Assembly (NCBI GenBank): GCA_941918925.1
Contig: OW799235.1
Span: 36,974,701 to 37,038,700, forward strand
From: Phyto melanocephala
Lineage: Eukaryota > Arthropoda > Insecta > Diptera > Rhinophoridae
DNA: 64,000 bases
Direction of reading: 5' to 3'
In this document: positions 2,503-52,050 of the stretch, piece by piece
How positions within the stretch are numbered: position 1 is the stretch's first letter
How the letters are laid out: each line of letters begins with the position of its first letter
Position numbers and translations under genes: made by a program
The notes under the pieces: generated by a model
The model's input: only the letters and a program-made list of their open reading frames with translations
Told to the model about the DNA's origin: nothing
Database searches by the model: none

Positions 2503-2568
2503 CAATATTGTTATAAAAGATATAAAAAACACATTGATTTTATATTTCTTTCTTATTATCGTTAAAAA

Positions 2569-5335: not shown

Positions 5336-5365
5336 GGTAGCAAAATAATTAGCGCACATCGATTT

Positions 5366-5776: not shown

Positions 5777-7192
5777 ATAGGGGAGTCGATTAAGCTCTGA
5801 CCGTCTGTCCGTGTGTGTGTTAAAATCAACTTTTTGAAGCCCCCCAACATCGCTTGGACCCAGGTATTAAAATGTCAGAAATATTCGGGAGTAGATCGCT
5901 ATTGAAAATCAGAAACATCGGTACATAAACAACTGAGATATGAGCAAAAACCCACGACTACCTCGATTTTTTTTCACAAAAACAACATTACAACAACAAT
6001 ATACATACATACAAACGTGTATACTGGTTAGAGAAAACGTGGCATCGAATCCCAGCTGAGCCAAAAAAATTTTTTTTTATTTTTTCTAAATATTTTTTTT
6101 TTAATTTGTTTTTTATTTTTTACTAGCTAATACCCGGTGTGCTTTTTACCCAAAATTTTAGTATTTAATTCATATGGCAGGTGCCACGCCCACTATTGTT
6201 AATGCACCCATTTTTTCCAAAAATGTTTATTCGAATATCAAAGTCGCTTTTGCAAAATTTTAGTACTCTAATCGATATCGTTTTCCAGATATACGAATTT
6301 TAGTATTTAATTCATATGGCAGGTGCCACGCCCACTATTGTTAATGCACCCATTCTTTCCATAAATGTTTATTTGAATATCAAAGTTGCTTTTGCAAAGT
6401 TTTAGTACTCTAATCGATATCGTTTTCCAGATATACGAATTTTAGTATTTAATTCATATGGTAGGTGCCAGGCCCATTATTGATAATTCACACATTTCTT
6501 GCCAAAATGTTCATTTGGGTGTCAAAGTTGCTCTTGCAAAATTTTACTACTCTAATCGATATCGTTTTTAAATATACGAATTTTAGTATTTAATTCATGT
6601 GGCCACGCCTACTATTGGTCCGCCCATTTTTTACCCAAATGTTCCTGTGGATGTCAAAGTTTACCGTACTAAATTTGAAGAATCTAGCTGCATTAACTTT
6701 CGTGATATATAATATTTAATACTTATTCTTTAATAGGGCGTGGCACCCCGCCCACTTACAATTTCAATCCAAAGTATATCCTATAGTTCCTTCCAGACAT
6801 ACATTAAGATTCTGTGAACATTTCAAGGAAATCGGTCCAGCCGTTTAACCGTCTATAAAGCACAAACAAACATACAAACACACATTGATTTTTATATATA
6901 TAGATTTAATATATTATTTATATTTTGATTATTAGTTTTTTTTAATATATTTTTTATTTTTTTTTTGTTTTATATTTATTATATAAACTTTAATAATTTT
7001 TTTTTAAATTTTTTTTTTAATTTTTTTGAAATTTTTTTTTTATTTTTTTTTTTAACATACATACGTAAATTTATGTATGTACGTATTTCATATGGGATGA
7101 ATGGTGATACAAACTACTGTTATTGCATGACTACACATTGTGAAGGGTATATAAGATTCGGTACGGCCGAATATAGCGCTCTCACTTGTTTA
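5777..7192 (+). repeat. dispersed repeat family A, forward copy carrying a Helitron
   Basis: The forward copy starts at GGGAGTCGATTAAGCTCTGA, lacking its 5' end. It continues through AAAATCAACTTTTTGAAG, CAACTGAGATATGAGC and the tRNA-like core (ACTGGTTAGAG ... GCATCGAATCCCAGC near 6030-6060) to long A/T tracts. It ends in TTCGGTACGGCCGAA followed by TAGCGCTCTCACTTGTT. A Helitron is nested in its A/T tract at 6123-6904. With the adjacent reverse copy it forms a large head-to-head inverted repeat. Confidence 0.8.
6123..6904 (-). mobile_element. nonautonomous Helitron, subtype II
   Basis: Read on the minus strand it starts TCTATATATATAAAAATC and ends CACACCGGGTATTAGCTAG, giving the 5' TC and 3' CTAG expected of Helitrons. 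It sits exactly between host A (6122) and T (6905), the Helitron target, with no target duplication. The interior has three or four diverged repeats of about 120-170 bp, each carrying AATTTTAGTATTTAATTCAT and a GGTGCCACGCCCACTATT-like block. No Rep/helicase coding is present. Confidence 0.85.
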
Positions 7193-14117: not shown

Positions 14118-14940
14118 GTTGGTTGGTTATCGTGGTAGTTCGCTGCACGCCAACAGTCAAGTAGAGTCTGTATGACTCCGTTTTGACAGGACCACATCAC
14201 TCGTCAGCTTCTAGTGTATCTCAGAATAATATCCAAGAGTAAGGGTACTAGATCCACCCCGTGGCCCTGAGGTATCTCAGTAGATAATTCAGTCCAACTT
14301 CAGATATCGCAGAGAGGCCATCTAGTATATGTTCGCTCAGAAATCTGTGTCTCTTAGCCGCCAGTGCAGGACATTCGCAGAGAAAATGGAAAACCGATTC
14401 CTCCTTCTCTCTATCCAGACAACTGCGACAATGGTCGTTCGATGGGAGTCCGAGCCGACTTGCATGTTTGCCTAACATCCAGTGACCCGTCAATACCGCC
14501 AGCAACCTCGATATGTCCCTCCGACTTCGACTAGTAAGTTGCAATGTACGTCGTGCATCAAAAGAGGGCCACGTAAGCCGTGCCACCTTACACGTGCTCA
14601 GCCCACGCCACCGGAGAAAGTGTCTGGAGATTCTGCTTTTAATAGTCCCCAACGGGATTGTAACTGCAATTGCATTAGAGATATCCAGAGCAGATTCTCC
14701 CCTGGCTAGCTCATCAGCACGCTCGTTACCATAGTGGCCCTTATGCGCAGCAATCCAAACTAGAGTAACGTCAGCCCGCTGACCAAGCCTTGACAGTTCC
14801 TTTCTACATTGGCCAACTAATTTAGACGTAATAATGTATGACCTCAGTGACAAGAGTGCCGCCTGACTGTCGACAAATATACCAATGCTCCCGTGGATAT
14901 TCACCCTAATAATTACCCTTACGGGCGGCTTCAGCGCTGC
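14118..14940 (-). pseudogene. 5'-truncated LINE: RNase H and C-terminal domain (LOA/I group)
   Basis: An open frame of 218 codons (14904-14248, minus) encodes the 3' end of a LINE ORF2. It carries an RNase H-like segment (FVDSQAALLSL, VWIAAHKGHYGNERADELA). A C-terminal region follows with GHWMLGKHASRLGLP, a CRSCLDREKEESVFHFLCEC zinc-knuckle-like motif and a terminal LRYLRATGW. RNase H plus this tail points to the LOA/I group. The reverse transcriptase is missing, so this is a 5'-truncated copy. The retained frame is undamaged. The 3' UTR runs to about 14118 and ends in AACC-type short repeats. Confidence 0.8.
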
Positions 14941-15450
14941 ACAAGTCTCTCAAAACAGAGTAAATAAAGCACGTGGTGATTACGCCTCTTTTAAGGGCCG
15001 ATATTGACTTTGAATAAAACACAAATTAATTATGGAACAAAATATCGGTATCAAATAAATGGCTCGATCAGTGGAACACTAAATGGGTATCAAATAATTA
15101 GTAGAATATAAATAGTTAACCATGTAAACATTCAAAATCAAAGATTGCATTGGAAATAATTAAGAAAATGGCGAAAAGCATGAAAGCTAGGCTAAACAAC
15201 GTTGTTTCATTTGAACTATGTAAACACGTGATACTGAGGGATAATATTAGACGGCGATTATTTTACATATGAGCAGACATGTTTGAATAGTATTTAATTA
15301 CAAATATTTCTTCAATTTACAAAGCCCATTGCATTTTTAATTGTCACAAAATACAGTTTCGGTTTGTTCTCTTATGAATACGATTGTATCTATTATACTC
15401 AGTTTTCTTTTAGATACGTACTAAAAACAACCATATAAGTATTAAAAACA
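14941..15450. other. intergenic, downstream of the first BED/hAT gene
   Basis: About 500 bp of A/T-rich DNA between the truncated LINE and the polyadenylation signal of the minus-strand gene. No further feature is recognised. Confidence 0.5.
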
Positions 15451-15691: not shown

Positions 15692-18600
15692 CTGCAAGTA
15701 AAAATTAATTAAGTTCCAAATAAATAAATTTTTGTATTTGACCGAATATACATATATATGTCCGTAAATATGAACATAAATAATTTTTAGACCGATTTAA
15801 AATCAAGTAATGAAAGGAAAATAGTAGACAACCATCACTCCTATCGTGAATATTTTTTTTCTCTCGAAATATTTGCCCTGAAATCGTGAATAAATTCCTC
15901 AAGAAAGTTTTCACTTTTATTTCCTACTAGAAAAACCCGGCGCGCGTTGCTACGCCCCTTAATGAATATAAATGCATTCTAAATTTTAATTGAATATCAA
16001 GTGCAAGAAGCTAAAAATAATAACTTTTTTTAATGCGCGTGGCCCTGCCCACTTTTCTAATCACGAAACTCTATAGTGATGACAGCTCAATATGTGTGCA
16101 AAGTTTCAGAAAAATCGATCTAGTGCAAGTAGCTAAAAATGATAACTAATTTTTATGGGCGTGGCACTGCCTACTTTTATTATCACGAAATTGTATAATC
16201 ATGACAGCTCAATATGTGTGCAGTTTCAGAAAAATCGGTCCAGTGCAAGTACGTCAAAATTATAACTTTTGTCTATGGGCGTGGCCCTGCCCACTTTTCT
16301 AATCACGAAATTATATAGTCATGACAGCTCAATATGTGTGCAAAGTTTCAGAAAAATCGGTCCAGTGCAAGTACCTCAAAATTATAACTTTTTTATGGGC
16401 GTGGCCCGCCCACTTTTCTAATCACGAAATTATATAGTCATAACAGCTTAATATGTGTGCAAAGCTTCAGAAAAACCGGTCAAATGCAAGTAGCTAAACA
16501 TGATAACTAATTTTTAAGGTCGTGGCCCCGCCCATTTTTTGCCACCCATAAACACTCCCTGGAATGTGTACAACAACTTGCCAAAGTTTAAGTCCGATCG
16601 GTTTTACAGTTTCGGAGTCTATAGCTAACACACACACACAGAGTTTCATTTTTATATATATACAGGCATGTGATGGAAATCGAAAACGAAGCAATTTTGA
16701 AAGTTCGTTTTAATACTCTATGAATAAATTTTTTGTAATTTTTGTTATATATGTACATAAATATTTCTATATTAAAAAGAATTTTATAACAAAAATTACA
16801 AAAATTTTATTCATAGAGTATTAAAACGAACTTTCAAAATTGCTTCGTTTTCGATTTCCATCACATACCTGATAGATTAACATTGAATGTGCATTATATT
16901 ATATTGAACAGCTGTCTAGTGAAGGTAACAAAAAATGCACGGTAAATTCAAAATACCAATTTTCATTTCGATGGAAATACAAATTTCATGCGAAGAAATA
17001 TTTCACTTCTTATTCACGATAGGGGTACATGTTCTTTAAGAATAGTTTAATTAAGCTATGTTCACATTAGGCAAATATTTAACGAAATAGACGTAAGCAC
17101 TAAAATTTATTAATTTTTGCTCTAAGCAATAATTATCTATTTCACTAAAAATCTTCCGTATTAAAACCAATTCCATTATGTCTAGACTGTAGTATTTTGT
17201 GTAAGAAAAAATCACATAGAATTGCCTAATGTCGACACTGTTTTAATTAAAGAAAATACGCGTGCGTACATATTATTTGAACTTACCTGAGTGGTTGGAA
17301 AAGCAAAACATATCGCGCTTAGTGTGTATATTTCAGGCTGGATATCTTTTTGCTGATTCCAAAACATTAGTATGTTCGTGTCTACCGATTGAAATGGTAA
17401 TTTTAGTTCTTCGATTTTCCTATAAACGTCAGCGGTTCTTGTATCAGTTTCTTTTATGTCTTTACTGAGAAATTCATTTAGGAAGGCGTCCTCGTCATCA
17501 ATACATATTACTGAATCACTATCTTCTTCTTGAGATTGAAGGGCCGTGTTTATGACATCAGCCTTATAGACTTTTGATTGACTCCACAGTTTTTTTAAAT
17601 ATTCCGAGGCTATTGTTTTCTCTGATGTACCTAAGGTATGGTGAAAGCGAGGATCCAAATACAAACAAGCTTCAAAACAGTCTCTTTTTAAAAGTTCTTT
17701 TGATCTTGCTTCAATGGATTTCAACAGGTCAGCGGAAATAGTAGTAACATGAATATTTTCGACATTGGTAGCATGAGCTAGTTTTGCCGTTAAAAGCTTG
17801 TTTTTTAACCATTGAGCGTAAAAATCTCCAAAATGCATTTCTTCGTTGTAGTATTTAAGTATGGATTTTTGCAGACAACTTAAGGATTCACAAAAAGCTT
17901 CAACAAACAGCCATAAATTATCATTGGCATCGAAATGGTCTTCTGGATTTTCAAGTTTAGGAAGTTTTACGTTGTTTAAAATACTGCGGGCTTCCAGTAA
18001 TTTTTGCATCATTTCATAAGTTGAACCCCATTTCCAAGGAGAATCCAGTTGGGGCATATATAAATTATTTGCTTTAAAAATCTCATCAAAACTATTCGAA
18101 TTGTCACCAATGAATTTGACTAAATTGCGACACTCCAAAAATAGTTTACATATATTAAAATTTTTAAAAATGTCAAGTAGGCACAGTTGGGCTATTGAAC
18201 CAATATAACGTTCTACCATTATATCACCAAATTGTATCTCAGGATGTTTTTCAAAGCTTTCGAATTCCTTTATATATTCAGAATTATTTACCACTGTATT
18301 GAACTTTGGTTTGGTATTATCACAACAAATGCGAATAATCTGATTGGAGTCTATATTAAATTTACCCAAAATTTTTTGAAAATGTTTTTCAGTTAATTGA
18401 GAATCATTCATTAGATCTATTACGCCCAGATTGCACGATTGTATCGCCCCATCATCGATATACTGTGTGCTAATACAAAAAGTATTTGGGGGTCCTTTAA
18501 TATCCATATCGACTTTCAGAGACAACAATCGCCAATTTAAGTCATGAGAAAATTCGTCCCGCAAATGATTGGCCACTAAACTAAGAAGTTGCTCAGTTTT

Positions 18601-19632
18601 AATTTCGTCTATAATAAACTCTGTTTTTTCCATATTGGATATAGACTCACAAATGGGTTTTATAAGTGTCTGCATGTTTTTAGAACCAAAAATCTGCGGT
18701 GGTAGACCATCTTCTATAATGAGACCCCATACCGCTGACATTATGATTTGTTTGTTCATTTCAATGGCCAGTAGAGTATTCGATGACTTTGGCTGATCAA
18801 CGGTTCCCGAGGGGCTTTTAGGTTTGGAAACTGTTAAACCTGAAATATCGCATATATTTTTTTCTTCAGATATATTTAATGACGTTTCAACAGTTACGGT
18901 ACTTATTACAGGTTTAGTAGGCTGCAGGCTTTGTCTGGATAATTCCTGAATTGGTGTTATAGACTGTACGTTATGAATGGGGTATTCATTACTAATTTGA
19001 GTTGGTATGATAGATGCCGCACTTTGGATTACAAAATTGTTTATAGTTTGATTTGGTGCAATATTTTGTATACTCTGTGTAGCATATTCGTGGATTTGTG
19101 GTGATGCAATGGTTTGTATGTGTGCACTTGAATGTGCGTGTTCTACATTTGGACCTGTATGTGCATAGCTCAATTTAACGGGGATTATTGTATTTTGTTT
19201 ATTTTCAAGATATTCTTGAACAGGCATCTCTTCATTGGTATCATCGCCAGTAAGATTTATTATATTATGGTCTGCTTTTGCTCTTAATTCTCTCTTGCTA
19301 GTTTGTACAGGTAGCTTTCTCTTTGTAGTCCCTTCTTCGGATTTAAACAATATAATATTATGATCTACCTCTAAATGCTGTATTAGATTACTGCTGTGAT
19401 TGTTTCTTACACTTTTATTGCAACGTTTGCATACTGAAACTTCCTGCCCAGTTTTAGTATGGAAGTAGTTCCACACTTCGACCTTAGCGTTATGTAGTCT
19501 TAGCAAATGTTGTTTCAAACCCCAACAGCGATCACTTTTTATACGTTGCTTGCATAGTTTACACACAGCAATTCCTTCTTCTGCAATATTGTCGAAATAC
19601 TGCCACGCTTCGCTTCTGGGATTAGATACCAT
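15518..19632 (-). CDS. two-BED zinc finger, hAT transposase-derived protein (two exons, 839 aa)
   Basis: Exon 1 is 19632-17287 (782 codons). It ends ACTCAG|GTAAGT in phase 0. Exon 2 is 15691-15518 (57 codons plus stop) after TTGCAG. The protein opens with two BED-type zinc fingers (C24-x2-C27 ... H42-x4-H47 and C68-x2-C71 ... H86-x4-H91), a DNA-binding fold. A linker rich in Q, I, T and S (about 95-290) follows, then a hAT-like body with LDSPWKWGSTYEMM matching the RW-STY motif of hAT transposases. The C-terminal dimerisation region (NILMFWNQQ ... LSAICFAFPTTQ) continues across the intron into SIRLNSHLL. No TIRs bracket the gene and the frame is intact, so a domesticated transposase acting in the nucleus is inferred. 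The partners and target DNA are unknown. The paralogue at 27246-29606 has the same intron position. I do not recognise the orthologue well enough to name it. Confidence 0.85.
15927..16876 (-). mobile_element. nonautonomous Helitron, subtype I, in the intron
   Basis: The plus strand begins CTAGAAAAACCCGGCGCGCG and ends TATATATA ... GA before T (16877). The minus strand therefore has a TC start and CTAG end between A (15926) and T. Four or more ~95-125-bp internal repeats carry GGGCGTGGCCCTGCCCACTT and ATCACGAAATT motifs. The 5' TC terminus is split by a foldback element at 16663-16871. The whole lies in the intron of the BED/hAT gene, which explains that intron's 1.6-kb length. Confidence 0.8.
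16663..16871. mobile_element. foldback MITE nested in the Helitron terminus
   Basis: Two arms of about 87 bp are near-perfect inverted copies. The outer end reads CAGGCATGTGATGG on the left and, reverse-complemented, CAGGTATGTGATGG on the right. The spacer of about 35 bp is A/T-rich. ATA flanks both sides (16660-16662 and 16872-16874), a candidate 3-bp target duplication. The arms are too similar for an old insertion. The superfamily is unknown. Confidence 0.8.
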
Positions 19633-20767
19633 TTTGTGGTGTTTGTTTGATTCAACCGTTTGTTATTTTTTTTATACACAGGCAAATGTATGTATGTAGT
19701 ACAATCAGCTATACTATAACGTCGATTTGTTACAAAAACAATACACACACACGTACATAAGAAAATCAGCACAGAATTCTTTCTGTTTATTACACTCGTG
19801 ATACGTTCCCAACAACGATTGTTTGCACACTAAAATTGAATATCTCATATACTAATGCACTCTTGTGCTCTCTTGTTGTCTTTTTTGAGTTGTTTCTAAA
19901 CTGGGCATAATATTTAAGAGCATACAAAACCAAACATCGCGACGTGCATTAATGTGCTGTTAACAGTATACGTTTGCTCAAGTAAAAACTTCAAATGTGT
20001 ATGGTTTTTGAAGCTACACGTACAATAACAATACAAATGCAAAACTAAAGTTCGTCTTTATCGATTTTTTCATTAAACAGCACATTTGTGTTGTTTATTG
20101 TTTGATTTTTTCCGGTAAATGTTAGCAGTCTTTTCTTGTGAAAAACACATTTTAACTGTTTATCTGCTCAGTGACTGAACAAAGCAATATATGTCGTATT
20201 GCTTCTTTTATTAAAGACATACATATGTACATAAAAACATGTATACTTAGATCTACATGATTTTATTTCTCGCTCTTACGAATCTTGATTAATGAACGCA
20301 AAATAATTTTTTAGGTGTTTAGCTATGCAAAGTCTTATGTGTATACTAATGTAATTACCCCCGAAGTTAATATTTTATCACAAACAAAATTTGATTGTAT
20401 GGTTTATAGGTAGTTAACTAACATAAATAAATATTCGCTTTCAAATTTCATTTTGTATAACACTAGAAAACGTTCTGACTAGCATTTCAGCAAAACGAAA
20501 GTGCGAAGTTCTACAAAAACAACACACCAAAGTTCTGTTGTCAAGTCGAGCCCTCTAAATAAAAAAATGTGTATACATACATATGTATGTATGTATGTAC
20601 ACTAAAATACAAACGCGGCAGCCTTTCTTCTACGTCATGAGTTTAAGCGCATGCCTATTTCGAGTGTAACTAATTATGTAAATATGTTCTGCAAAGTAAT
20701 ATATGCATGTATATGTAATACATATGCATGTGTACGTAGACTTATTGCAATAAAAAATATATTGCAA
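19633..20767. other. 5' flank of the first BED/hAT gene
   Basis: Presumed promoter and 5' UTR region for the minus-strand gene. No TATA box is clear. The motif CTCTTGTGC near 19860 also occurs upstream of the paralogue. A CATACATATGTATG microsatellite lies at about 20575-20600. No other gene is seen. Confidence 0.4.
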
Positions 20768-25335: not shown

Positions 25336-26891
25336 ATACCCTTCACACAGTGAAAAAGGGTATATATAGGTTTGTCATTCCGTGTGAAATTTCAACAATT
25401 TTCATTTCCGACCCCATAAAGTAAAAAGCTTATGAATAGGGGAGTCGATTAAGCCCTGTCAGTCTGTCCGTGTGTATATTGAAATCAACTTTTTGAAGCC
25501 CTCCGTTATCGCCTGGACCCGGGTGGGGTATTAAAATATCAGAAATATTCGGGAGTGGATCGGTATTGAAAATCAGAAACATCGGTACATAAACAAAAAA
25601 AGCCACGACCACCTCGATTTTTTTTCACAAAAACAACATTACAACAACAACATACATACATACAAACTGTATACTGGTTAGAGTAAACGTGGCATTGAAT
25701 CCCAGCTGAGCAAAAAAAGTTTTTTTTAAATTTTTTTATTTTATATATTACTAGCCAAACCCGGCGCGCGTTGCTACGCCCCTTAATGAATCGAAATGCA
25801 TTCTGAATTTTAATTGAATATCAAGTGCAAGAAACTAAAAATTATAATTTTTTTTATGGGCGTGGCATTGCCCACTTTTCTAATCACGATATTGTAAAGT
25901 CATAATAGCTCAATATGTGTGCAAAGTTTCAGAAGAATCCGACCAGTGCAAGTACCTCAAAATTATAATTGTTTTTATGGGCGTGGCCCTGCCCACTTTT
26001 CTAATCACGAAATTGTAAAGTCATAACAGCTCAATATGTGTGCAAAGTTTCAGAATAATCGGTTCAGTGCAAGTACATCAAAATTATACCTTTTTTCTAT
26101 GGGCGTGGCACTGCCCACTTTTCTAATCACGAAATTATTTAGTCATGATAGTTCGATATGTGTGCAAAGTTCCAGAAAAATCGGTCTAATGCAAGTACCT
26201 CATAATTATAACCTTTTTTTATGGGCGTGGCCCTGCCCACTTTTCTAATCACAAAATTATATATTTATGACAGCTTAGTATGTATGAAAAGTTTCAGAAA
26301 AATCGGTCTAGTGCAAGTACCTCAAAATTAAAACTTTTTTAGGGGCGGTGCCCCGCCCACTTTTCTTATCACAAAATTATTTAGTCGGGACAGCTCGATA
26401 TGTGTGCAAAGTTTCAGAAAAATTGGTCAAGTGCAAGTAGCTAAAACTGATAACTAATTTTTATGGGCGTTGGCCCGCCCACTTTTTTCCACCCATAAAC
26501 ACTCCCTGGTATGTGTACAACAACTTGCCAAAGTTTGATTCCGATCGGTTTTACAGTTTCGGAGTCTATAGCTAACACACACACACACACAGATTTTCAC
26601 TTTTATATATATAGATTTATATTTTTATTATTATTTTTTTTGTTTTATATTTATTATTTATATTAATTATTTTTTTTTAATTTTTTTTCTTAAGTTTTTT
26701 TTAATTTTTTGTTATTTTTTTTTTTTTAACATACATACGTAAATTTATAATTTTACAATGGGATGTTTTTATATATGTATGTACGTATTTCATATGAGAT
26801 GAATGGTGATACAAACTACTGTTATTGCATGACTACACGTTGTGAAGGGTATAAAAGATTCGGCACGGCCGAATATAGCACTCTTACTTGT
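25335..26891 (+). repeat. dispersed repeat family A, forward copy with nested Helitron
   Basis: Complete at both ends: TATACCCTTCACACAGTG at the start, and TTCGGCACGGCCGAA with TAGCACTCTTACTTGT at the end. The tRNA-like core lies near 25671-25708 (ACTGGTTAGAGTAAACG, then GCATTGAATCCCAGC). A Helitron of 865 bp is inserted in the A/T tract. Confidence 0.8.
25751..26615 (-). mobile_element. nonautonomous Helitron, subtype I (complete)
   Basis: The plus strand runs from CTAGCCAAACCCGGCGCGCG to TTTTATATATATAGA, between A (25750) and T (26616). The minus strand therefore reads TCTATATATATAAAAGTG ... GGGTTTGGCTAG. Six or seven internal repeats of about 115 bp carry GGGCGTGGCCCTGCCCACTT. A stem GGCG/CGCC lies about 12 nt from the CTAG end, as in Helitron 3' hairpins. 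There are no Helitron proteins, so it is nonautonomous. Confidence 0.85.
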
Positions 26892-27542: not shown

Positions 27543-29606
27543 CTGCAAGTTAAAAGAAAAAATTATATATAATAGTTATTATTATAATTATGGTTTATTA
27601 GTTATAAACATTTTATAATGCAATGCATTTTAAAATATATGTTAATAAGAAGTGTTATACAATATTTTGAATTCAAGCTATATTATACAAATATGTGTAA
27701 TTTTAGATTAACACCTAACCTCTGTTGCTGGTAAAGCAAAACATATTGAGCTCATTGTGTGCATTTCGGGATTATCAACTTTCTGTCCCTTCCAAAATGA
27801 TAAAATATTTGCATCTGCCAGTTGGAAGGGTAGTTTAAGATCTTCAATTTTCTGGTGAACGGAATTAGTTTTTGTCTGAATATCATGACTAAGAAATTCA
27901 TTTAAGAACTCATCTTCATCGTCGTCAAACATTTGTTCCGTTGTTTCCATAGATTCTAATTCATCAGCAATATAAAGTTTGGCGCGACTCCATAATTTCT
28001 TTAGGTATTCGATAGCATTTGCTTTTTGTTCAATGTTAAGTGTGCGCTGAAATCTTGGATCTAAAAATATACATGCCGCAAAGCGATCTTGACTTAATAA
28101 TTCTTTTGATCTTTTCTCAATTGCTTTAATTACTTCCGTCAAAATCAACACTGTGAAATCGTCTGTTTCATCAGCTTTTACTAGTTTTTGCGTTAGAAGC
28201 TTACATTTTAACCATTGTGCGTAAAAGTCGCCAATATGTAATTCCTCTTCATAGAACTTTAAAATGGACTTTTGTAAGTAAGCTGTTGACTTACAGAAGG
28301 CTTCAATAAATGACCATAATTGGTCGTTTGAATTGACTTCATCATCACCGTCTTCCAATTTTTCAAATTTTATATTTTTCAAAACTTCACGAGCATCGTA
28401 CAAATCCTGCATCATTTTATATGTGGAACCCCACTGCCATGGTGAATCCAGTTGTGGTATATTTAACTTATGCTGATCAAATAATTCCCGGTAGCCATTT
28501 GATTTATTATTTAAAAACTTTATTAAATTGCGGCACTCCAAAAACGTCTGTAATATACTAGAGTGCTTAAAAATGTCCAACATACATAATTGGGCGCTAA
28601 CTCCCAAATATCGCTCGACCTTGATATCTCCCAATTTGATCTCGGGGTATGACTCAAACTGTTCAACTTCTTTTAAATATTCTGAGTTTTTAACCTGCTG
28701 ATAATACTTTTGTTTTGAATTGTCCCAAAAAACAGCTATAATCTGATTGGAATCAATGTTAAATTTATATAAAATTGGTTTGATATGTTCTTCTTTTAGC
28801 TCACAGTCTTCATCTTTTAAATCAATTATGCCTAAAAATCGTGTTTGTATTTCTCCATCTTGAATAAAGCGAGTACTAACGCAAAACGTTTTAGGCGATG
28901 CGTTTAAGTCTGTATAAATTTTCACACATAACAAACGCCAGTGTAGATCGTTGGAGAAATCATTGCGTACGAAATTAGCTAATAAATTAATAATTCTTTC
29001 GATTTCATTTTCATCAACTTTGAATTCTGTACACTCTTTATCGGAAATGGCTTCGCACATTGGCTGCAATATCGCCTTAAAATGTTTTGATACAAACAGA
29101 TGAGGTGCTAAACCGTCTTCAACAATTAATCCAATTACTGCGCGAATTATTGTCTTTTTCTGCATTTTAATGTAAAGTAGTCCTCTTGGACGTTTCTCGC
29201 CATTGCACTCCCGTTCCATCATTTTACGCTTGGCCACTCTGAGCACTGCTGTTATTCGATCTTCATCATAAGGCAGTGGTGAAGGTGTTTTAATAGTCCG
29301 CTGTTTATCATCTTCCGGTAGATGCACTATGATACCATGGGATCTGCGCATATGTAATCTTAAATTGCAGAGACGATTCTTAAGTCGATGGTGGCATGTT
29401 ATACACTCAGCTATATTTTCGATAGCATCAATGTTAAAGTACTTTTTAATTTCGTTTCTATTTGTGTGGATCTTCTTTATGTGTAGTTTTAAATTGTAAC
29501 TGCGATTGCTCCTTAAACGTTGCTTGCACAACTTGCACTCTGCCATTCCCTCCTCCACGAAATTGTTAAAGTACTTCCATAGTTCACTATCGGGTTTTAA
29601 AGCCAT
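27246..29606 (-). CDS. two-BED zinc finger, hAT transposase-derived protein, paralogue (two exons, 727 aa)
   Basis: Exon 1 is 29606-27720 (629 codons), ending ACAGAG|GTTAGG in phase 0. Exon 2 is 27542-27246 (98 codons plus stop) after TTGCAG. The intron is 177 bp. Two BED fingers (C24-x2-C27 ... H42-x4-H47 and C68-x2-C71 ... H85-x4-H90) are followed by a short basic linker (AKRKMMERE ... KRPRG). The hAT-like body has LDSPWQWGSTYKMM and AQWLKCKLLTQKL, and the C-terminal region NILSFWKGQ ... SSICFALPATE continues as IYNKICY ... RLNSHLL in exon 2. The paralogue matches over most of the body but has about 200 more linker residues. An acidic tail (ECYDISDDCDDDS) extends exon 2. The intact frame and shared splice site argue for a retained host gene of nuclear DNA-binding type. 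The biological role is unknown. Confidence 0.85.
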
Positions 29607-30770
29607 GACTCTTCCGTATAAATTGAATTGCTTTTTTCACACAGTTTTTAACAAATTTTAGGAAACCAAATAGTACACAAAATTTCGTAAACAAAAGAAA
29701 CACTCTTCATACGTTACACTATTATCGAAGACTCAACAAGCACTAATAGTAATCGGCTTGGAAAATAAAAATTTTTTTAAACATTCTCTTACACTCTTGA
29801 GTTTAATATTTCTTTTATTGTTGTATTGCGAGCTGCTTATAAATTTCATTATTTTCTCTGAGTTGCTACATCATATGTGTGAAATTGACGTGATTGTTTT
29901 GCTCTTGTGCCTGAGAGTAAAACTAATGTAGTATACGAGCATTGAAAAGTACTACTCTCTTTTTTTTGTGTTTGATGTCAGTGTTGCCTTAAAGTTTATT
30001 TTAAACAAATGTATGTATATTGAATAAATTATATGTATGTAGATACCAAACGTATTAATGTATATATACATACATATGTATCTATTTATGTCTGTATCTT
30101 TTATTATTTACAGAATACATTCGTGAAGTCAAGAGAATTCTTTATTGATATGTTTTTTTAGAATCAGGGTTTTCAATTTGTTTTCGCTTCCATCGCCAAG
30201 TTGTTAGTTAAACGACGCACTGTGTTGCGGCTAGTGGAAAAGTAACTTTTTTCCGATTATTTTTTTCATTGTTTTTAATGATGCAATTTTGTCACAGACA
30301 TTCCAAGTAAACAAAAAACACATAAAGCTTATTTTTAAGTTGGCCCGTTGATTTTTAATTGATTTTAGAAGTCAAATATACAAAATTTTTACGAAAAGAG
30401 GGGATTTCAGGGCTGTATTCAAAATGATCTCATTTGATTTTGGTGACAGATATTTTGATTCGGAAAAAAAATCTGCCTTCGGACAAGTATCTTCTGTAAA
30501 AAAAAAGGAATGTTGTTTGAGACATTTTCATATGCACCTTTTTTAGAGCGAAAACCCGACTAATGGTCCATTTTTCCTTAAAATTTGGGTTAGGTAAGCA
30601 ATATCTAAAAAGTCCCAGAGAGTCTCAGTTCCAAACCACTACAGAAATGTTACATAATTTGTTTTCAACGAACTGTGAAAAAATCAGCTGCCCATACCTG
30701 CCCTCCTGGGAGTTATAGCGATTTTAGTATATCACTCTCAATATTTATTCCATAGAAATAGAACGGGAAT
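29607..30770. other. 5' flank of the second BED/hAT gene
   Basis: Presumed promoter and 5' UTR for the minus-strand gene. CTCTTGTGC near 29902 is shared with the flank of the paralogue. A weak MITE-like segment (GGGCTGTATTCAAAATGATC) begins near 30411. No gene is seen. Confidence 0.4.
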
Positions 30771-31347: not shown

Positions 31348-32010
31348 TAAAATTTCCTATCAGGAACTGCATGAGTTGATGCAACAGAGTAAAACTAGAA
31401 ACGTGGACGATGTTTTGGAATTGCTTGATCATGAGCATGGAGTGAAAAATAGTTTAATATTTCCAAACATAAAAGATAAATTGAAAAAGTTCGTCAATAA
31501 GTACAATGCACGTCTTCAAGAGTTTAACAGGAATAGTATCTTCAAAGTTTTTTTTTTATTCTACATCTATTCTAGCACTACACAAAAATGAGCATAACTC
31601 TCAAAAATCAAAGTTATCTTTTTATATATAAGTAGCTTTGTCATTCCGTTTGTAATTTCTACAATTTTCATTTCCGACCCCATAAAGTATATATTTTCTG
31701 AAAGCTTATGAATAGAGGAGTCGATACGTGTGTTGGTTGAAATCAACATTTAGAAGCAACTATTTGTTCCTCAGATCTGTGTATTGAATCGCTATTGAAA
31801 TTCAGCACAATCGCCCTATAACTTTCTGAGACCACCTCGTTTTTTGCACAATTACAACAACAACATACATATATACTGGTTAAAGTAGACCTGGCATCGA
31901 ATCATAACTGAGCTAAAAAAAATTGTTTTTATTATATTTTTATATTAGGCTATAAGTTCTATGTGATAATGACAGAATATCTAGGAAAAGTTAGTCATCC
32001 GATACTAGCT

Positions 32011-32058
32011 GAGTGGAATGCATTTTCGAAACCAGCTACGGTTTCATCATCAGCACTC
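32011..32058 (-). ncRNA. type I hammerhead ribozyme, unit 1
   Basis: Read on the minus strand: GAGTG (helix I 5' strand), CTGATGA (core box 1), an extra T, GAAACC-GTAGCT-GGTTTC (helix II, six pairs, 6-nt loop), GAAA (core box 2), AT-GC-AT (minimal helix III), TTC cleavage triplet, then CACTC (helix I 3' strand, five perfect pairs with GAGTG). Predicted cleavage is between plus-strand positions 32016 and 32015. The only departure from consensus is the T between box 1 and helix II. The very short helix III is typical of Penelope-like and retrozyme hammerheads, which usually act as dimers. Confidence 0.75.
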
Positions 32059-32507
32059 TTTTGATCAGAGCTACAAATGTTGTGTGTAAATATCAACTAT
32101 TTAACTCAGTATTTATTGAAATTTGAAATATAGAATTATTTGTTCTAATTGATTTATGTATTTCATATAACATTGAGTTAGTACGAAATCTACCAACATC
32201 TGTTTTTCCTGTATTCTTTTTGCACGTCATTACCACAGGTAATTAATAGTTGCCTTTAGCTACAGATCCACAGATGTCGCTAAAGCAATTTTTGCAATTA
32301 TGCAGTTTCATTATATGTCACATGTGTTCTAAACAAGATGGTATTAGTTGAACAATGTTTTTATTTTTACACCATGCCCTGTGTTTGTTGTATTTTTAAA
32401 GTATTACATTTGAACTTTTTAATTTGTATTATATTTTTATATTAGGCTATAAGTTCTATGTGATAATGACAGAATATCTAGGAAAAGTTAGTCATCCGAT
32501 ACTAGCT

Positions 32508-32555
32508 GAGTGGAATGCATTTTCGAAACCAGCTACGGTTTCATCATCAGCACTC
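32508..32555 (-). ncRNA. type I hammerhead ribozyme, unit 2
   Basis: Identical to the unit 1 motif and exactly 497 bp away, with the same core boxes, helices and TTC site. Cleavage at both sites of a tandem minus-strand transcript would release a 497-nt monomer. Confidence 0.75.
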
Positions 32556-33306
32556 TTTTGATCAGAGCTACAAATGTTGTGTGTAAATATCAACTATTTA
32601 ACTCAGTATTTATTGAAATTTGAAATATAGAATTATTTGTTCTAATTGATTTATGTAGTATTTCATATAACATTGAGTTAGTACGAAATCTACCAACATC
32701 TGTTTTTCCTGTATTCTTTTTGCACGTCATTACCACAGGTAATTAATAGTTGCCTTTAGCTACAGATCCACAGATGTCGCTAAAGCAATTTTTGCAATTA
32801 TGCAGTTTCATTATATGTCACATGTGTTCTAAACAAGATGGTATTAGTTGAACAATGTTTTTATTTTTACACCATGCCCTGTGTTTGTTGTAGTATCGGA
32901 TGACTAACTTTTCCTAGATATTCTGTCATTATCACATAGAACTTATAGCCTAATATAAAAATATAATACAAATTAAAAAGTTCAAATGTAATACTTTAAA
33001 AAAAAAAAAAAAAATAAAAATTGTTTTTATTTTACATAATATTTTTATTTTTTTTTCATTTTTTTTCATTTTTTTTTTGTAATTTTTTCTATTGTTGTTT
33101 TTGTTTTTAATATATTTTTTTGTAATTTTTTTTTGGAAACACGTACGTAAACTCAATTTATAATTTTGCAATGGGATGTTTTTATATATGTATGTTTTTT
33201 ATTTTATATGAGATGAATGGTGATACAAACTATTGTTATTGCATGACTACACGTTGTGAAGTGTATATAAGATTCGGCACGGCCGAATATAGCACTCTTA
33301 CTTGTT

Positions 33307-35954: not shown

Positions 35955-36529
35955 TCAATTGCTGTCGTGAGAATAAAGTTTACGTTTGTTGATGGTATAA
36001 TCAGGACTAATAGTTATAGTCCTTGAAAGACCTTTTATAAACTGGGGCAATAACGAGGTCCAGCCTCTTTTATCCTGGCGTAGTGTTAGATACACTTCAA
36101 ATGTGGACACCATTTCGTGATCCAATTTTAATTTAGCAATTCGCTTAACAATATTTATGTCCTCTTCGTATTCTACGAACACGGTGCAGCCGCGTATACC
36201 ACAGGGTTCTCGTTCCGAGACACGTACAATATCGGTGGCTATGCGTTGAGTGAGATCACTGGGTAATGAAACTTCGGTACAGGTAAGATTGCGAGTTTTG
36301 GCCGATCGCAATTCAGCCAGTAAAAGTAAAGAAAGTTCATTTACCGCTGCCGCATCAATTCTATCACAGTCAATTTGTTGTTCATCTTCTGAAGCATAAT
36401 GGTATTCTGGTGGTATTTGTTGCGGTTGTTTCCGTTTTTGTTGCACTTGATGTTTTTGCACGGTATGGTTACGCTGTTGGTGAATGTGGTGGGAGTTTTG
36501 TGCGTTATTGCTTAAAGATCTTGACCAAT
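35955..36529 (-). CDS. chrb: exon 2 of the charybdis-like gene
   Basis: Holds the entire REDD1 domain and the stop codon. Its start is fixed by the acceptor TTGTTTTTAG|ATTGG on the minus strand and by phase agreement with exon 1. Confidence 0.9.
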
Positions 36530-39500
36530 CTAAAAACAAGAAAATAAAAAAAAACACACAAATTATTTACGGGAAGTTATATAAAAAAATAACGTATTTA
36601 CATAAATATAATAAACAATCATGAAATATGTACATAGATAGTTTAATTGTATTATAAATTGTAATTAAAAAACAATCAAAATCAAAAACGCACTGTGGGG
36701 CCAAATGCCAAAACTGTTGAAATCTTTTTTTTATATAAAATAATTGCTTAAAGTCTTAGGGCCGTATTCATAAAAAATATTTTAGATTTATTAAAAGCTT
36801 ATTTGACAGATGTTGTAGAGAAATTTATCAAATAAGCCTTCAATAAACCTAAAATATTTTTGAATACGGCCCTTAATTCACTTATCTGTAGTTGACATTA
36901 TTATATTCCACTGGAAAAAGATAGATTTTTTTTATTATTTTATGGTAAAAATTATATTCACTTGAATAAATGAAGCAAACAATATTCTTTCTTATTTGAT
37001 GCATTACAAAATGTAACTCTTATTGCATAGAAATTATCGAGCAGACATGTCAAAAAATCAGTCACACATATTTAACACATCACACTTTTAACGTACACAC
37101 AAGAAAAGATTAAATCTTTATAAATCCTTTAAATGTCAATCTTACTCTCTGGATTGCTTGTTTTGAAATGGTAACAGGGTCCTGATAACCAAACGTGAAT
37201 GGATTAAGCCTACTTCTTATACGGACAAAAACATACAAAATTATGTATTTTTTATGGCGATAATCGCCATAAAACTGTTTATTATTGGAACAAGGACGGA
37301 TGCTCTCTAAAAGGATTTTAATAATTTCACAGGTAGAAAGGATTCAAGTCAAATAATTGTTAGTTTTCAGGAGAAGACAAAAACGTAATAAAAACTGTAT
37401 TATCATAAAGTTACTTCTTTTGTAAAACTATTATTTTTGATACTATTGCATTAAATTTTTGTGTCAAGTTGTTTTTCTGTGAGAAATGTAGAAATTACTT
37501 ATTTTATTTCGCGGTTGTCCTGGCCATCGACTTCCTTGTGGGTTTAAGTCCAAAATGTTCTTCTTCTGCAATTGAGGACTGCCTAGGTCTTAACCACAGC
37601 TCTGTGTTGTAGGTACTCTTTGGACAAAACACTCGAAGAATGCGACGTAAACAACGATTAATTAAGTCTTAAAGATTTGAGCATTAGCGGTAGGGACATT
37701 CCAGCTTTCACTGCCATACAGCAGGACTGGTTTTACATTAGCGGTAAAAAGCTTAATTTTTGTGTGCAGTAAAATGTTAGGCGATCGCAAAATTTTTGCT
37801 TAAGGTGCCAAAAGCTTGCTTAGCTTTGGAAAGCGTGTATTCGATGACTTACTGGCTGTCACCATTGTTAGATATATAGCTTCCCAGGTAACAAAAACTC
37901 TGAACTTCTTTGATTTTCCCTCCATTCCATTCAGCTCGAAATTTGCCGTGCATGTGCTATTTAGGCACATTGATTTGGTTTCGGTTGAGTTAATTTGCAA
38001 TTCCGCTGCGCTTGTTTTTAATGCAATTTGGTTTTGCATCTCTTGGGTCTAAGTAAAGCTGTTCGAGAGCAAGCAAATGTCATCTGGCGGTCTACTTTGC
38101 AGAATGGAGCAGTTCATTAAAAGCACACTTGAAATCAATAAACAGGGGTGATTGCCATTCGTTTCATTATTCAACAATAGTTCTAAAGCATAACCATTGA
38201 GGCATGAATTCTGCTTGCTCGTTGCGTAAGTTCGGTTCGACTACAGCTGCAATGCGTTTGTACAAGATCTTTGAAATGACTTTGTTCGCAACATTAGGGT
38301 GTGTTATACCCCTTGAATTTCTATAGACCATAAGGTGTCTTCCTTCGGAAGAATGAAAGTGATGCCTTCTTTCTGGTTCGACAAATGGTTTGAGGATTTC
38401 CGTGGCTAGATGTTTATTGCTCTTAAGCGCTCTGGAGCGATGTTGTCGGGACCAGCAGCTTTGCTCGATTTAAGTTGGCCGATTTCTGCCTCAATCTCAT
38501 CACTTCTATACTAACGTCGTTTCTGGGTGAGTGCTGATGTCTACAAAATTCATGAGTTGGATTGATGTTTTTTTGAGGAGGTTTTTATAATGTTCTTCCC
38601 AGGCGGCTAGTTAGGTCTAGGTGAAGTACATTAGGACACCATTTGAGTTCTGAATTGGTTTTGAATTGGAATGAATGCAACCAATCTTGGTGATTTTCTA
38701 AAGGTCTTTGTGCATTGGTGGTGAGGTTGTTTTATGAATAAGGTAGTAAAATTGCAAACATGACGAATACAGTACTTTATATTTATTTAAATCAACTTTA
38801 TAAACAGTTTTGTTCTGGCACTTTAATTTTTTGCTTTCAACTGGGAAAATATTTTAAATAAATACTTGAAAAATTTTAAATGTTATTTTTACAAAAAACC
38901 TAATAAATTTGTTTCCAGAAATACTATGGATATATATATTTATATGAATGCACACGCAAGTAAAAAGTAATTAGAAAATTTATGACTGTATAATCTAAAC
39001 AAATTCTATATGTCTATTAACATTTTCCTTTTGTTTTTTTTTCAGAGAATAATTTGCAACGTGTATGTTAAGTATTTCAAATATACACATACACAGTTCT
39101 ATACATATAAATCAGAGAATGTCAAATTTGTGGAATTACTTGAATAACTCATGTTTACAAGTTCTTGTTCATAATCAGTAAATTGAACAAAAACACACTG
39201 TTCAACAAAATGAACAGTTTCTGTGTCATTTACTGATTTGTGGAAATAGCCAATACGTAAGTATAAGTATATGGTGAGTGTATTTACTTAAATGAATAAT
39301 AGTTGACGTGAACAAAGGCAGTCTCTGGTATATATGTATATGTAAATATATGTCTAAACGTTAACTTATTGGCTCAGAGAGAGATTTTTTAACAAAAAAG
39401 TTTTTTTTTTTTAACAAATTCATATAAATTACGAAAATTTTATTTATGTCGATCATTTATTTGATAGACATTATAATGTTATTAGCATGTCAGCAAAGCA

Positions 39501-42500
39501 TTGAACTCAATTAATTAAAGTATTGACATATCTTAAATGCTAATAAAATTATTAACGTATGTTTAATTAATATTATTAATATTTACTACTATTGATAAGC
39601 TACCGAGTACAATCTTTTTAAACTTAAATACATGTGTGTAAATAAACATGATTATATTCACGACAACACGGCTACATGGCAACACGACCACAGTTGTAGC
39701 TGTGGCCAACATAGGCTAATTTCTATGTTCGTAAGCTACAAACAGCTGTTCATATTGTAAATAGTTTATTGTCACACAACGTGTCCGATAGGTTGATAGC
39801 CGCGGCCAAGTTCATGAAGATATATTGTGCTCTACCCGCAGCCGAGTTTTAGGCGAATGGTAGTAGGTACACACTTTACAACGTGTTTATTAAACACATT
39901 TGTCACCATTCAAATAAACTGCAATCCATAATTAAATCATGGCAAAATCATACATTTTCAGATCTTGCTCGTTTCCAATAAACTAGTCCATTAAAATAAA
40001 CAACGATTCACAATGTTCATTCAACATCAATGCAACCAGATAATATCGAAACTTTTTAAATTTTTTAAACCTCGAATTAAACACGAAATGAAAACATTAA
40101 CACGACTACACATTAAGCATAAATATGTTCCAAAAAGTGTGTATTTGCTGTAAGAATTAAAAATATTGCCAGAATGTAAAATTCGAAAATTAAGTACAAG
40201 TACAAGTATTAAGTAAGTAAGTAAGTCACACGTTGTGTGACATTCACACGAGAGTGGAAGTGTATAAGTTTGTCATTTCGTTTGAAATTTCTACAATATT
40301 GACTTGAGACCATATGAAGGTTATATTTATACTCTGAATACTTATAGATAGAGAAATTGATTTAGCTAACTCCATCAGTCCGTGGTATAGTATCAATTTT
40401 TTACTATCGAAAATCGATTATGTAGACACATTACGAGCTGAGATATGAGCAAAAGAACACGATTGCTTCTGCTTTTACCCAAATAAAGATACATTTTGCA
40501 GCTCTTATGGAATTTCTTAAGACGCATAAACAAATTATGTCCCTCTGGCAACATTTTCAGAAAATCTTGGTTGCATGGGCCATTTACCGGCAAAGGTATT
40601 AGCTAACAAAAATTGTTTAAGAAAAAATGTCAATTAGAAGTTCAGTTTATCGATTTGCTTAATAAACTTTTTGTCAAATTTTCACCAAATAATTGTCACA
40701 TATGGTCTTAAAATTCTTAATGTTGAAAGGTAACAAAATTGTCATACAAACTACTAAGATATAAGCAATAAACCACTAGGACTTTTAATTTTTTCCTTAA
40801 TTCAATTTTAATTTTTTACACGAAAATCTATTAAGATTAACTCCCGGATAAATGTTTGCCTAACTTTTTACATGTATATACAATACATGTAAAATACTTC
40901 TTTAGTGAAAATATTTAGTCCAATTGCTCTATTGATTTTTAAGGATATAAGAAAAAAATATTCTTTTAACATAAGCTGTTAAACAAAAAAAAGAAAATAA
41001 CTGTGTGAGGACTATAAGAGATACGGCACACCCGAATATAGCGCTCTTACTACTTTTTATTTTGTTTGTTGTGTTTTAAAAATTTTAACTTTTAAAGCTT
41101 TGCATAAGAAATTTATACCAAAATAAACATTTTTATTTATCTATAGTTTTTTCTTTCGTCTAAAGCAAGCTTTCAGTTATTGCCGTTGTTGTTTGCAACG
41201 TAGCCGCCATCGCTGACTATATCTTATCATCTTATTATAATGTTGCTGCCGTCTTAAATATCGGGTGTCCCAACTAGAACGCAATTTTTAAATTTGGCGC
41301 CATTCGAAGTGTCATTGTTTGACATTTGAACAATTGTTATTGTTTGCTAGTAGAAGGTACGAGGTTAGTAAAAATGGAGCGCTACACGAATGAACAACGC
41401 ATTCTCATTGTGAAATTGTTTTACCAAAATGGTGAAAGTTTTGCGGCTACAGTTCGCAAATTGCGATCAATTTGGAGTCACAATAATCCTCCAGAAGAGT
41501 CAACTGTAAAGAGATTAATGGATAAATTTGCCGAAACTGGGTCTGTTAGTGATGTAAAGACAACAACGCGCCTTCGACCAGGTCGATCGACCGAAAATGT
41601 CGCAGCTGTACGTGATGATGTCGCTCAAACTCCATCCACCTCAATTCGACACCGAGCTCAGCAAGTTGGTGTCTCCAAATCCACTATGCAGCGAATTTTG
41701 ACGAAAGATTTGCATCTTCATGCATACAAACTTCAATTGACTCAGGAATTGAAGCCAGCTGACCATGGACAGCGATTAAGCCGACGATGACTCAAGCCTT
41801 AAAAGAGGCAATATATCGTGCCATATGCACGATATATTGTTCCATACATAACCTCATTCTGTCTCCTTTACGATATAATAAAGTTTCACGATCTTTTTTT
41901 AAATATCTGTGTTTTATTTAAAATTTAAAAATTGCGTTCTAGTTGGGACACCCGATATAATTAAGTAACTGACTACGCGGCAACGATTGCAGACAATAAC
42001 TTTTTTAAGTTTGCAAACTAAATATTTAGTTTGTGTGGGTCAGAGAGAAATAGAGTTTGCAAACTTTAATTTTTGAGTCTGAGAGCTGTCAAAATACAGT
42101 TCTCAAGGTATCGAGTAACTGAAGTGTTAAAGGATTGAGTAACCATTGAACCAAATACCCAATGCCTAGTATATATTTAACTACCCAAAACGTTGTCAGA
42201 ACTTGTATAGATACTAGGTTAGATTTGATTTATGTGCTGTTTTTAAAATCCGAACGATTGCTTTGCATGTTTTTTGTTATTGTAACAAAAGCAATTTACA
42301 CGCAAAAGCATCACTCAAAGCTCCACACTCCACACAATATGTAAATACAATTTTATCCAAATAACCTGAAAAATCAATTATTTTTAAATGCCTTTGAGAG
42401 CATATTACTATATATGTATATTATATTCATAAGTATAATGCAAATAGTTGCCGTAACCGCAATTTTTAATAAATATTTCTTTGATACTATACGATTTCCT

Positions 42501-51420: not shown

Positions 51421-52050
51421 CTAGCTAATACCCGGTGTGCTTCGCCACCCCAAATTTTAGTATTTAATTCATATGGCAGGTGTCACGCCCACTATTGTTA
51501 ATGCACCCATTTTTTCCATAAATGTTTATTTGAATATCAAAGTTGCTTTTGCAAAATTTTAGTACTCTAATCGATATCGTTTTCCAAATATACGAATTTT
51601 AGTATTTAATTCATATGGTAGGTGCCACGCCCACTATTGATAATGCACCCATTTCTTGCCTAAATGTTCATTTGGGTGTCAAAGTTGCTCTTGCAAAATT
51701 TTACTACTCTTATCGATATCGTTTTCCAAATATACGAATTTTAGTATTTAATTCATGTGGCCACGCCTACTATTGCAAGTCCACCCATTTTTTACCCAAA
51801 TTTTGTGTGGATGTCAAAGTTTACCGTACTTAATACTTATTCTTTAATAGGGCTTGGCACCCCGCCCACTTACAATTTCAAACCAAAGTATAGCCTATAG
51901 TTCCTTCCAGACATACAGGAAGATACTGTGAACATTTCAAGAAAATCGGTCCAGCCGTTTAACCGTCTATAAAGCACAAACAAACATACAAACATATAAA
52001 CATACAAACATACAAACATTCAAACACACATTGATTTTTATATATATAGA
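51421..52050 (-). mobile_element. nonautonomous Helitron, subtype II
   Basis: Plus strand CTAGCTAATACCCGGTGTGC ... TTTTTATATATATAGA between A (51420) and T (52051). The minus strand starts TC and ends CTAG, with a GGTG/CACC stem about 13 nt before CTAG. The interior repeats match those of 6123-6904 closely but one fewer copy is present. Confidence 0.85.

Follow-up and report, generated by a model that had tools for sequence, protein, structure and literature searches.

The window, i.e., the whole stretch of 64,000 nucleotides analysed here, comes from the calyptrate fly Phyto melanocephala. It holds an insertion with the same 16-mer, AAAAATTGTTTTTATT, at both borders; the left copy of this target-site duplication occupies 31918–31933 and the identical right copy 33016–33031 (no strand is assigned to either). 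Since the duplication flanks the whole structure, the borders 31934–33015, given already in an earlier reading made from the letters alone (the sequence-only reading), are those of one insertion, and they fall exactly between the two 16-bp copies.

A tandem array of ~1.94 units of 497 bp lies on the minus strand at 31926–32892. It reads right to left, its 3′ end is at a position that we call site A, and its first 8 bases (from 31926) coincide with the left duplication as microhomology. At 32891–32892 the array meets head to head an inverted partial unit on the plus strand (32891–33011). This partial unit covers unit positions 9–129, counted, as throughout, from the cut of the hammerhead ribozyme (HHR); it is 97.5% identical to that part of the unit and has no HHR. 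Its 3′ end is at a second position, site B, and is followed by a short A run reaching 33015. The two-unit tandem array described earlier is present on the minus strand, but it is not a plain dimer, as the inverted third partial unit had been overlooked.

Each full unit carries on the minus strand a hammerhead, GAGTG-CTGATGA-T-GAAACC-GTAGCT-GGTTTC-GAA-AATGCATT-C^CACTC. The inner parts of the two ribozymes stand, letter for letter as first reported, at 32011–32058 and 32508–32555, with predicted cuts between 32016 and 32015 and between 32513 and 32512, respectively. Both were located by exact sequence and by our model R1, which scored the first at 51 bits, a copy that is in the model’s seed. The two sites had been placed exactly one unit apart. 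The hammerheads are indeed 497 bp apart, but a 3-bp indel between the two units makes the spacing 497 on one side and 500 on the other.

On the minus strand at 32412–32456, past the HHR cut, we placed a putative initiation hairpin, GAACTT...AAGTTC, using the strand positions, the insertion ends and the predicted fold; its copy in the inverted partial unit is at 32939–32983 on the plus strand. The loop of this putative hairpin holds site A, and site B is ~20 nt past it. Directly past site B there is a box, ACAC-n8-GTGT (32369–32384, minus strand), read from the alignment and present in four aligned subfamilies.

The tandem units, with a G+C content of 29.6%, are non-coding, as the sequence-only reading had said: the longest ATG frame is 45 aa, and no frame for a reverse transcriptase or GIY-YIG endonuclease is present. 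By eye, we noticed no LTR, primer-binding site or polypurine tract in the units.

Elsewhere in the window, the neighbour gene at 35958–36566 (RTP801_C) is scylla, with the best named relative in Calliphora vicina (83%), followed by Lucilia (79–80%). Two related-looking minus-strand frames with BED zinc fingers, 17212–19662 and 27708–29636 (816 and 642 aa), are probably transposon-derived. Tandem repeats with a 142-bp unit lie at 6154–6603 and 51453–51761, and those with a 122-bp unit, at 15997–16539 and 25824–26486, hold the empty site of one of the insertions considered below (L041). Frames at 2566–3936, 14248–14949, 41323–41790 and 61980–63350 are remnants that we take to resemble piggyBac, a non-LTR RNase H, a mariner and a reverse transcriptase; of these frame-based assignments, the RNase H was checked by domain.

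Hammerhead ribozyme and family

Helix I is the open helix of the ribozyme and helices II and III are closed, which is the type I topology; there is one extra nucleotide (T) between CTGATGA and helix II. The core boxes and helices are as claimed in the sequence-only reading, except that helix I does not end at 5 bp. The 5-bp helix is followed by an internal loop and then by an outer helix I, TCTGAT/ATCGGA. With these parts included, hammerheads 1 and 2 span 31998–32069 and 32495–32566 on the minus strand, again 497 bp apart. The palindrome AATGCATT of helix III suggests that two units could form a double hammerhead.

We searched with a descriptor of the type I fold that required CTGANGA, a helix II of ≥4 bp, GAAA, a helix III of ≥2 bp, UH and a helix I of ≥4 bp. 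It matched the window at the two hammerheads only; 400 Markov-random 64-kb sequences gave 7 matches. A looser pattern, CTGANGA..GAAA..TH, was not above chance in the window (16 matches compared to 14.8 expected). The search with the Rfam type I hammerhead proposed along with the sequence-only reading came back empty: the window had no hammerhead match at gathering scores and none at E up to 10, and RF00163 had none at E up to 10 among the 73 of 57,102 genome candidates that were scored. This miss fits the extra nucleotide and the very short helix III. A viroid hammerhead with one nucleotide too many in its core is reported by De la Pena and Flores (2001, cited in PMC6155905). A collection of viral sequences contained no exact match to an HHR pattern. 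A weak snoRNA match (18.2 bits, with a gathering score of 50) was taken as chance.

In the nearest-neighbour model, a non-hammerhead pairing of the 48-nt core was favoured, −14.6 compared to −8.9 kcal/mol for the hammerhead. With the outer helix added the gap became smaller (−16.4 and −13.2 kcal/mol, respectively), and the minimum-energy fold had helices I and II with the core bases mispaired. The outer helix I was 98.3% paired in 10 distinct rows from four subfamilies; its covariation among the retrozyme subfamilies was not significant (159 of 500 shuffles). An alternative outer pairing, TAGCT/AGCTA, was dropped for TCTGAT/ATCGGA once the subfamilies had been seen; it still underlay the 48-nt core fold and the test of HHR variation described at the end of this section.

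We searched the genome (739.8 Mb, 9 contigs) for the 38-base HHR core and found 7,333 matches at ≤3 mismatches, while the 38 bases just downstream of the HHR had 768; reversed-pattern controls gave 0 in both cases. The ribozyme is therefore common to copies with diverged neighbouring sequence, although a single adjacent 38-base segment was compared. Random drift of the core boxes with the flanking sequence conserved, which the sequence-only reading had named as evidence against its proposal, is the reverse of the pattern seen with this one segment. Copies occur across five large contigs, and many consist of no more than 1–2 units.

Eighteen stretches (L096–L113), picked by the exact HHR core alone so that their core identity is due to selection, sorted into four subfamilies. 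S1 is the window type (L109 and L110); S2 has 6 stretches with a unit of ~510 bp, 84–87% identical to S1; S3 has 4 stretches with a unit of 556–559 bp; S4 has 6 stretches, three of them from one array, with a unit of 572 bp. Compared with the S1 unit, S3 and S4 had a long match only around the HHR (unit 387 to 52–54, 82–83%), some also having shorter matches elsewhere in the unit. By eye, the initiation box GAACT...AGCC, with AGTTC later, was seen in all four subfamilies where the copy extends that far, and ACAC-n-GTGT past site B in six aligned copies. For the outer helix I, S1 and S2 have TCTGAT/ATCGGA, S3 has ATCCCGA/TCGGGAT and S4 has ATTCCGA/TCGGGAT. Nine other arrays measured had unit lengths of 499–572 bp, with 497 bp in the window. 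The few parts retained by all subfamilies, despite bodies that are unrelated, make a short list of candidate cis-signals.

Nearest-neighbour copies differed by 0.00–1.35%, i.e., recent copies are nearly identical, and the window element belongs to an abundant, young mobile family. The retrozyme-like family postulated from the letters is borne out in being non-coding, tandem, dispersed, duplication-flanked and with the HHR kept more widely than its neighbour. Judged from genomic DNA, this fly has a new family of animal retrozymes, with units longer than the published ones; in the open-licence PubMed Central literature that we searched, no type I retrozyme family was found described for a fly.

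Two short diverged matches to the part of the unit around the HHR were observed as well, at L050 (1404–1470) and at L049 (1619–1647), the latter inside a small palindromic sequence. Weak matches of 29 and 68 bases near L036 and L011 were considered as fossils and left out of the counts. Among S1-like copies the HHR varied less than the rest, with 0.0027 compared to 0.0120 changes per site and locus; the difference was not significant (32 of 394 segments were as low; Fisher p = 0.11), and conservation of the HHR within this sample is suggestive only.

Insertion ends and resident Penelope-like elements

To characterise the insertions we used the loci that matched the window unit best (38 of 2,014 candidates scored), so the sample lies near subfamily S1. 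These are 38 of the 40 loci L009–L048, L025 being a repeat of L047 and L029 a continuation of L009, and they contain 39 insertions, 27 one-way and 12 head to head.

All 51 of the 51 3′ ends fell at unit positions 82–100 (site A, 28 ends) or 119–129 (site B, 23 ends). The two sites are ~35 nt apart, both downstream of the HHR cut, while the 5′ ends were scattered across the unit. One-way insertions ended at A in 15 cases and at B in 12. Among head-to-head insertions, 11 of 12 combined an A end with a B end; with the one-way A/B frequencies, and with the exception L009 left out, 11 of 11 mixed pairs would arise by chance with a probability of ~4e-4. L009 has ends A and A and is set in a palindrome with reverse-complement flanks. 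A diverged S4 array was also mixed, with L112 ending at A and L113 at B (by eye). As for L009 itself, its head-to-head retrozyme array (1133–6508) with mutually reverse-complement flanks is either a genomic palindrome or an assembly fold-back.

Duplications above the 95% level of a mismatched-flank null were found for 18 of the 39 insertions: 10 of the 11 head-to-head insertions outside the palindrome, compared to 7 of the 27 one-way insertions (Fisher p = 6e-4), and L009. The head-to-head duplications were 10–16 bp long. The script missed the duplication of L047 (AAATATTAC, found by eye), and the match scored for L031 sits 25 bases off and is probably chance. Comparison of the one-way insertion L041 with the known empty version of its repeat showed no duplication and one base fewer.

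The stem GAACTT/AAGTTC (in PLEs, introduced below, GATCT(T)/(A)AGATC) would close a loop with site A, and 5 of 7 sequences were predicted to fold with it; the folding energy of the predicted initiation hairpin was not unusual. MAFFT offsets the strands of this stem by one column between retrozyme and PLE, so the stem was compared by eye and left out of the covariation counts.

Penelope-like elements (PLEs) reside in the same genome. There were 118 GIY-YIG matches, mostly weak and near the cut-off, several of them in frames of 843–859 aa that stand in tandem at ~3.06 kb. One of these frames, at L063, contains a reverse transcriptase domain (E = 1.5e-9) and a GIY-YIG domain of ~22.5 bits, the latter seen only in the genome GIY-YIG search. 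Eight PLE matches in direct orientation, mostly ~3.02 kb apart, lie at G000 C1:71691407–71716075.

A hammerhead was present in 10 of the 14 PLE loci examined, as TTTCC-CTGAAGA-A-GCTACC-CAATGT-GGTAGC-GAAATATC^GGAAA or close variants. As in the retrozyme, there is one nucleotide after CTGANGA, a 6-bp helix II, a 6-base loop and a palindromic helix III; the palindrome is ATAT in the PLE, compared to AATGCATT in the retrozyme. Between the two hammerheads 7 of 12 pairs were compensated (reached in 0 of 500 shuffles, with one retrozyme row set against the PLE rows), and RNAalifold applied to both kinds together found helices I and II unaided, with 6 compensated pairs; in either case the compensated pairs represent a single contrast, retrozyme against PLE.

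The ends of the PLEs follow the same rule. In a selection of head-to-head PLE pairs taken from neighbouring GIY-YIG matches, 17 of 18 were mixed, with one end without a tail and the other with a tail; in the remaining pair, L092/L093, the ends were not assignable. L083 was judged tail-bearing by eye because of one changed base in its box. The tail-less ends were at about +64 to +74 after the HHR cut (five pairs measured), the tailed ends at about +100 to +106.

The PLE initiation region aligned best to unit positions 57–122 in 5 of 6 PLE segments, for which 0, 3, 8, 18 and 100 of 500 shuffles were at least as good; the sixth segment, L061, matched elsewhere in the unit, with 205 of 500 shuffles as good. 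With a shorter version of the region, 3, 38 and 104 of 400 shuffles were as good for three segments. The distance of site A from the cut differs (82–100 in the retrozyme compared to 64–74 in the PLE), and among the PLEs sampled in this genome none was found with an initiation sequence near-identical to that of the retrozyme.

The geometry of the retrozyme ends, as mapped in these copies, is that of PLE initiation in published descriptions. The protein of an anole PLE cuts and extends both strands in vitro and prefers AT-rich DNA; reverse transcription starts inside the RNA at two adjacent sites, which bound the ‘tail’ of genomic copies (PMC11167929). The anole HHR is described as cut at +26, with one start at 111–118 of the ORF, i.e., 85–92 nt past the cut (PMC11167929). 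A tail at one of two inverted pseudo-LTRs is reported for PLEs (PMC3846280).

Could a LINE with L1-like twin priming move the retrozyme, the A-rich initiation sites merely mimicking a poly(A) tail? The ends do lie in A-rich stretches, several with short A runs, and twin-primed L1 insertions also show duplications of ~7–16 bp with head-to-head inversion. Twin priming, however, does not predict that the two outer ends of an insertion use a pair of fixed internal sites, each once, a rule that the resident PLEs do follow in 17 of 18 pairs (one not judged). PLEs and retrozyme are also alike in HHR design and initiation region. Judged from the retrozyme and its resident PLEs, a LINE is an improbable source of the enzyme.

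This likeness also speaks for another explanation, in which the unit would be no separate retrozyme family but what decay has left of a Penelope pseudo-LTR, either a solo or a tandem PLE fragment. An internally deleted PLE has indeed been amplified in this genome as a 926-bp unit. However, blastn of the unit against PLE DNA gave no homology outside the HHR beyond short low-scoring stretches. Moreover, the nearest-neighbour distances are those of a unit that is not decaying, and four subfamilies retain the same parts. A pseudo-LTR origin of this kind we consider very improbable.

The deleted PLE (L075, G000 C2:133170230–133181844) lacks ~2.1 kb of the frame and forms a head-to-head array with units spaced ~819–926 bp, each with an HHR. 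It is a possible step from PLE to retrozyme.

Template and proposed cycle

Unit divergence was 0.23% within loci (208 unit pairs, 50 of which compare two adjacent insertions in L009) and 1.21% between loci (5,570 pairs). Among within-insertion polymorphisms, 59 of 71 had an allele absent from all other sampled insertions. Unit spacing differed on average by 0.35 bp within arrays and by 42 bp between them (9 arrays); in the same close-neighbour part of the HHR-core matches listed, 8 of 8 both-orientation groups were head to head. The arms of an inversion keep the unit length; in one case each arm has four units of 572 bp.

Tandem layout and homogeneity inside arrays are also features of ordinary satellite DNA, in which unequal crossing-over homogenises the units and the hammerhead would be a passenger, and some hammerhead repeats, those of cave crickets among them, were first described so (PMC2837043). 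Still, the copies lie on five large contigs and many have 1–2 units, all 51 ends fall at two fixed sites, and unit length is equal on both inversion arms. The fixed ends, together with duplications that exceed the null for all but one of the 11 head-to-head insertions outside the palindrome, already contradict the satellite explanation, to which we give almost no credence.

In every sampled insertion the sequence continues across the cut site to the following unit; in the template, therefore, the HHR cut junction was joined. Read-through, homogeneity and constant spacing are as predicted for rolling reverse transcription of one circular monomer, and as sequence patterns they are consistent with it without being proof. 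Alternatively, the template might have been a linear multimeric transcript of an old array, with the hammerhead dispensable for movement. In vitro the anole PLE still used HHR-dead RNA, and unprocessed RNA was its main substrate (PMC11167929). Linear copying, however, should pass on unit-to-unit differences, whereas the within-insertion polymorphisms were mostly private (59 of 71); the units of one array do not change in length, even across an inversion, and the HHR is conserved across subfamilies. We consider a linear template unlikely, though it deserves more weight than the explanations by a satellite, a pseudo-LTR or a LINE.

What the DNA itself shows is a conserved HHR, initiation fixed at two sites, the pairing of A with B, duplications, homogeneity within insertions and the same rule in PLEs. 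In our opinion the insertion in the window is quite probably a single retrozyme, non-coding and non-autonomous, that lives as a parasite of a PLE and is moved by the PLE enzyme. We infer a cycle in which tandem arrays would be transcribed, paired hammerheads would cut the transcript to monomers, and a host ligase, as in published animal retrozymes, would close the monomers to circles. The reverse transcriptase/GIY-YIG endonuclease, presumably given by one of the PLE families, would bind the stretch after the HHR and cut both strands of AT-rich DNA. cDNA synthesis would begin internally on the RNA, at either of the two sites, as the footprints support, and would circle the template one or more times until a random stop, in agreement with the scatter of the 5′ ends and the uniform length of the units. 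Where the two cut strands are both extended, one from A and the other from B, the cDNAs would join head to head, as the pairing of the ends supports.

A more specific proposal, which we put forward tentatively and with slightly less than even confidence, is that a head-to-head insertion is made by one PLE complex extending both strands of one break, A on one strand and B on the other. There would then be two sites because two strands prime, one per subunit, and the retrozyme would be a minimal parasite that keeps the hammerhead for circles, the initiation hairpin and the box past site B. The strict one-A-one-B pairing in both retrozyme and PLE hints at why PLEs have two start sites. Here the PLE signature lies in the insertions themselves. 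Since the same genome has both young copies by the thousand and PLEs whose open frames are long, the question of mobilisation is testable in one species.

Comparison with known systems

The fly retrozyme resembles PLEs with minimal hammerheads in pseudo-LTRs, for which tandem and head-to-head copies with a tail on one inverted end are described (PMC11167929, PMC3846280). Shared as well are internal initiation at two sites, AT-rich targets, an HHR upstream of the initiation region, and target duplications, given as 8–10 bp for rotifer PLEs (PMC3846280). Unlike PLEs, the retrozyme has no reverse transcriptase or endonuclease and its body is unrelated; its HHR is canonical, with an internal loop and outer helix I, compared to the minimal hammerheads described for PLEs.

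Cervera and de la Pena (2020) named PLEs as strong candidate movers of animal retrozymes (PMC7229834). Metazoan non-LTR retrozymes are described there as small, dispersed, non-coding and G+C-poor tandem repeats that carry a type I HHR with a short helix III, have duplications of >4 bp where these are present, and co-occur with PLEs (PMC7229834), and in all this the fly family is similar. The fly units are longer, 497–572 bp compared to 170–400 nt, a published range that is descriptive and not tied to mechanism, and the fly HHR differs in having one more nucleotide after CTGATGA, before helix II. The fly retrozyme forms head-to-head arrays with a two-site PLE footprint, and the accessible part of that account describes none for metazoan retrozymes (PMC7229834). 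RNA circles are reported as demonstrated for metazoan retrozymes (PMC7229834); for the fly family they are predicted.

Among insects, the pDo500 satellite of Dolichopoda cave crickets has a tandem unit of, by its name, ~500 bp, an HHR more conserved than the rest and a potential double hammerhead (PMC2837043). It differs in being described as satellite DNA, and the portion of that source available to us mentions no insertion footprint. Hammerheads are reported in dipteran genomes, the housefly included (PMC7936874); those are type III and kin to the hammerheads of HDV-like agents, and tandem retrozyme units are not mentioned in the accessible part of the report.

Plant LTR retrozymes are likewise non-autonomous, with a hammerhead in tandem repeats and a proposed circular RNA intermediate (PMC4918200, PMC7229834). 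Theirs, as described, is a type III HHR with LTR features and 4-bp duplications (PMC7229834), while the fly retrozyme has a type I HHR, no LTR features seen and longer duplications. The retrozyme class is known already; the footprint evidence and the one-A-one-B rule are what most deserve attention here.
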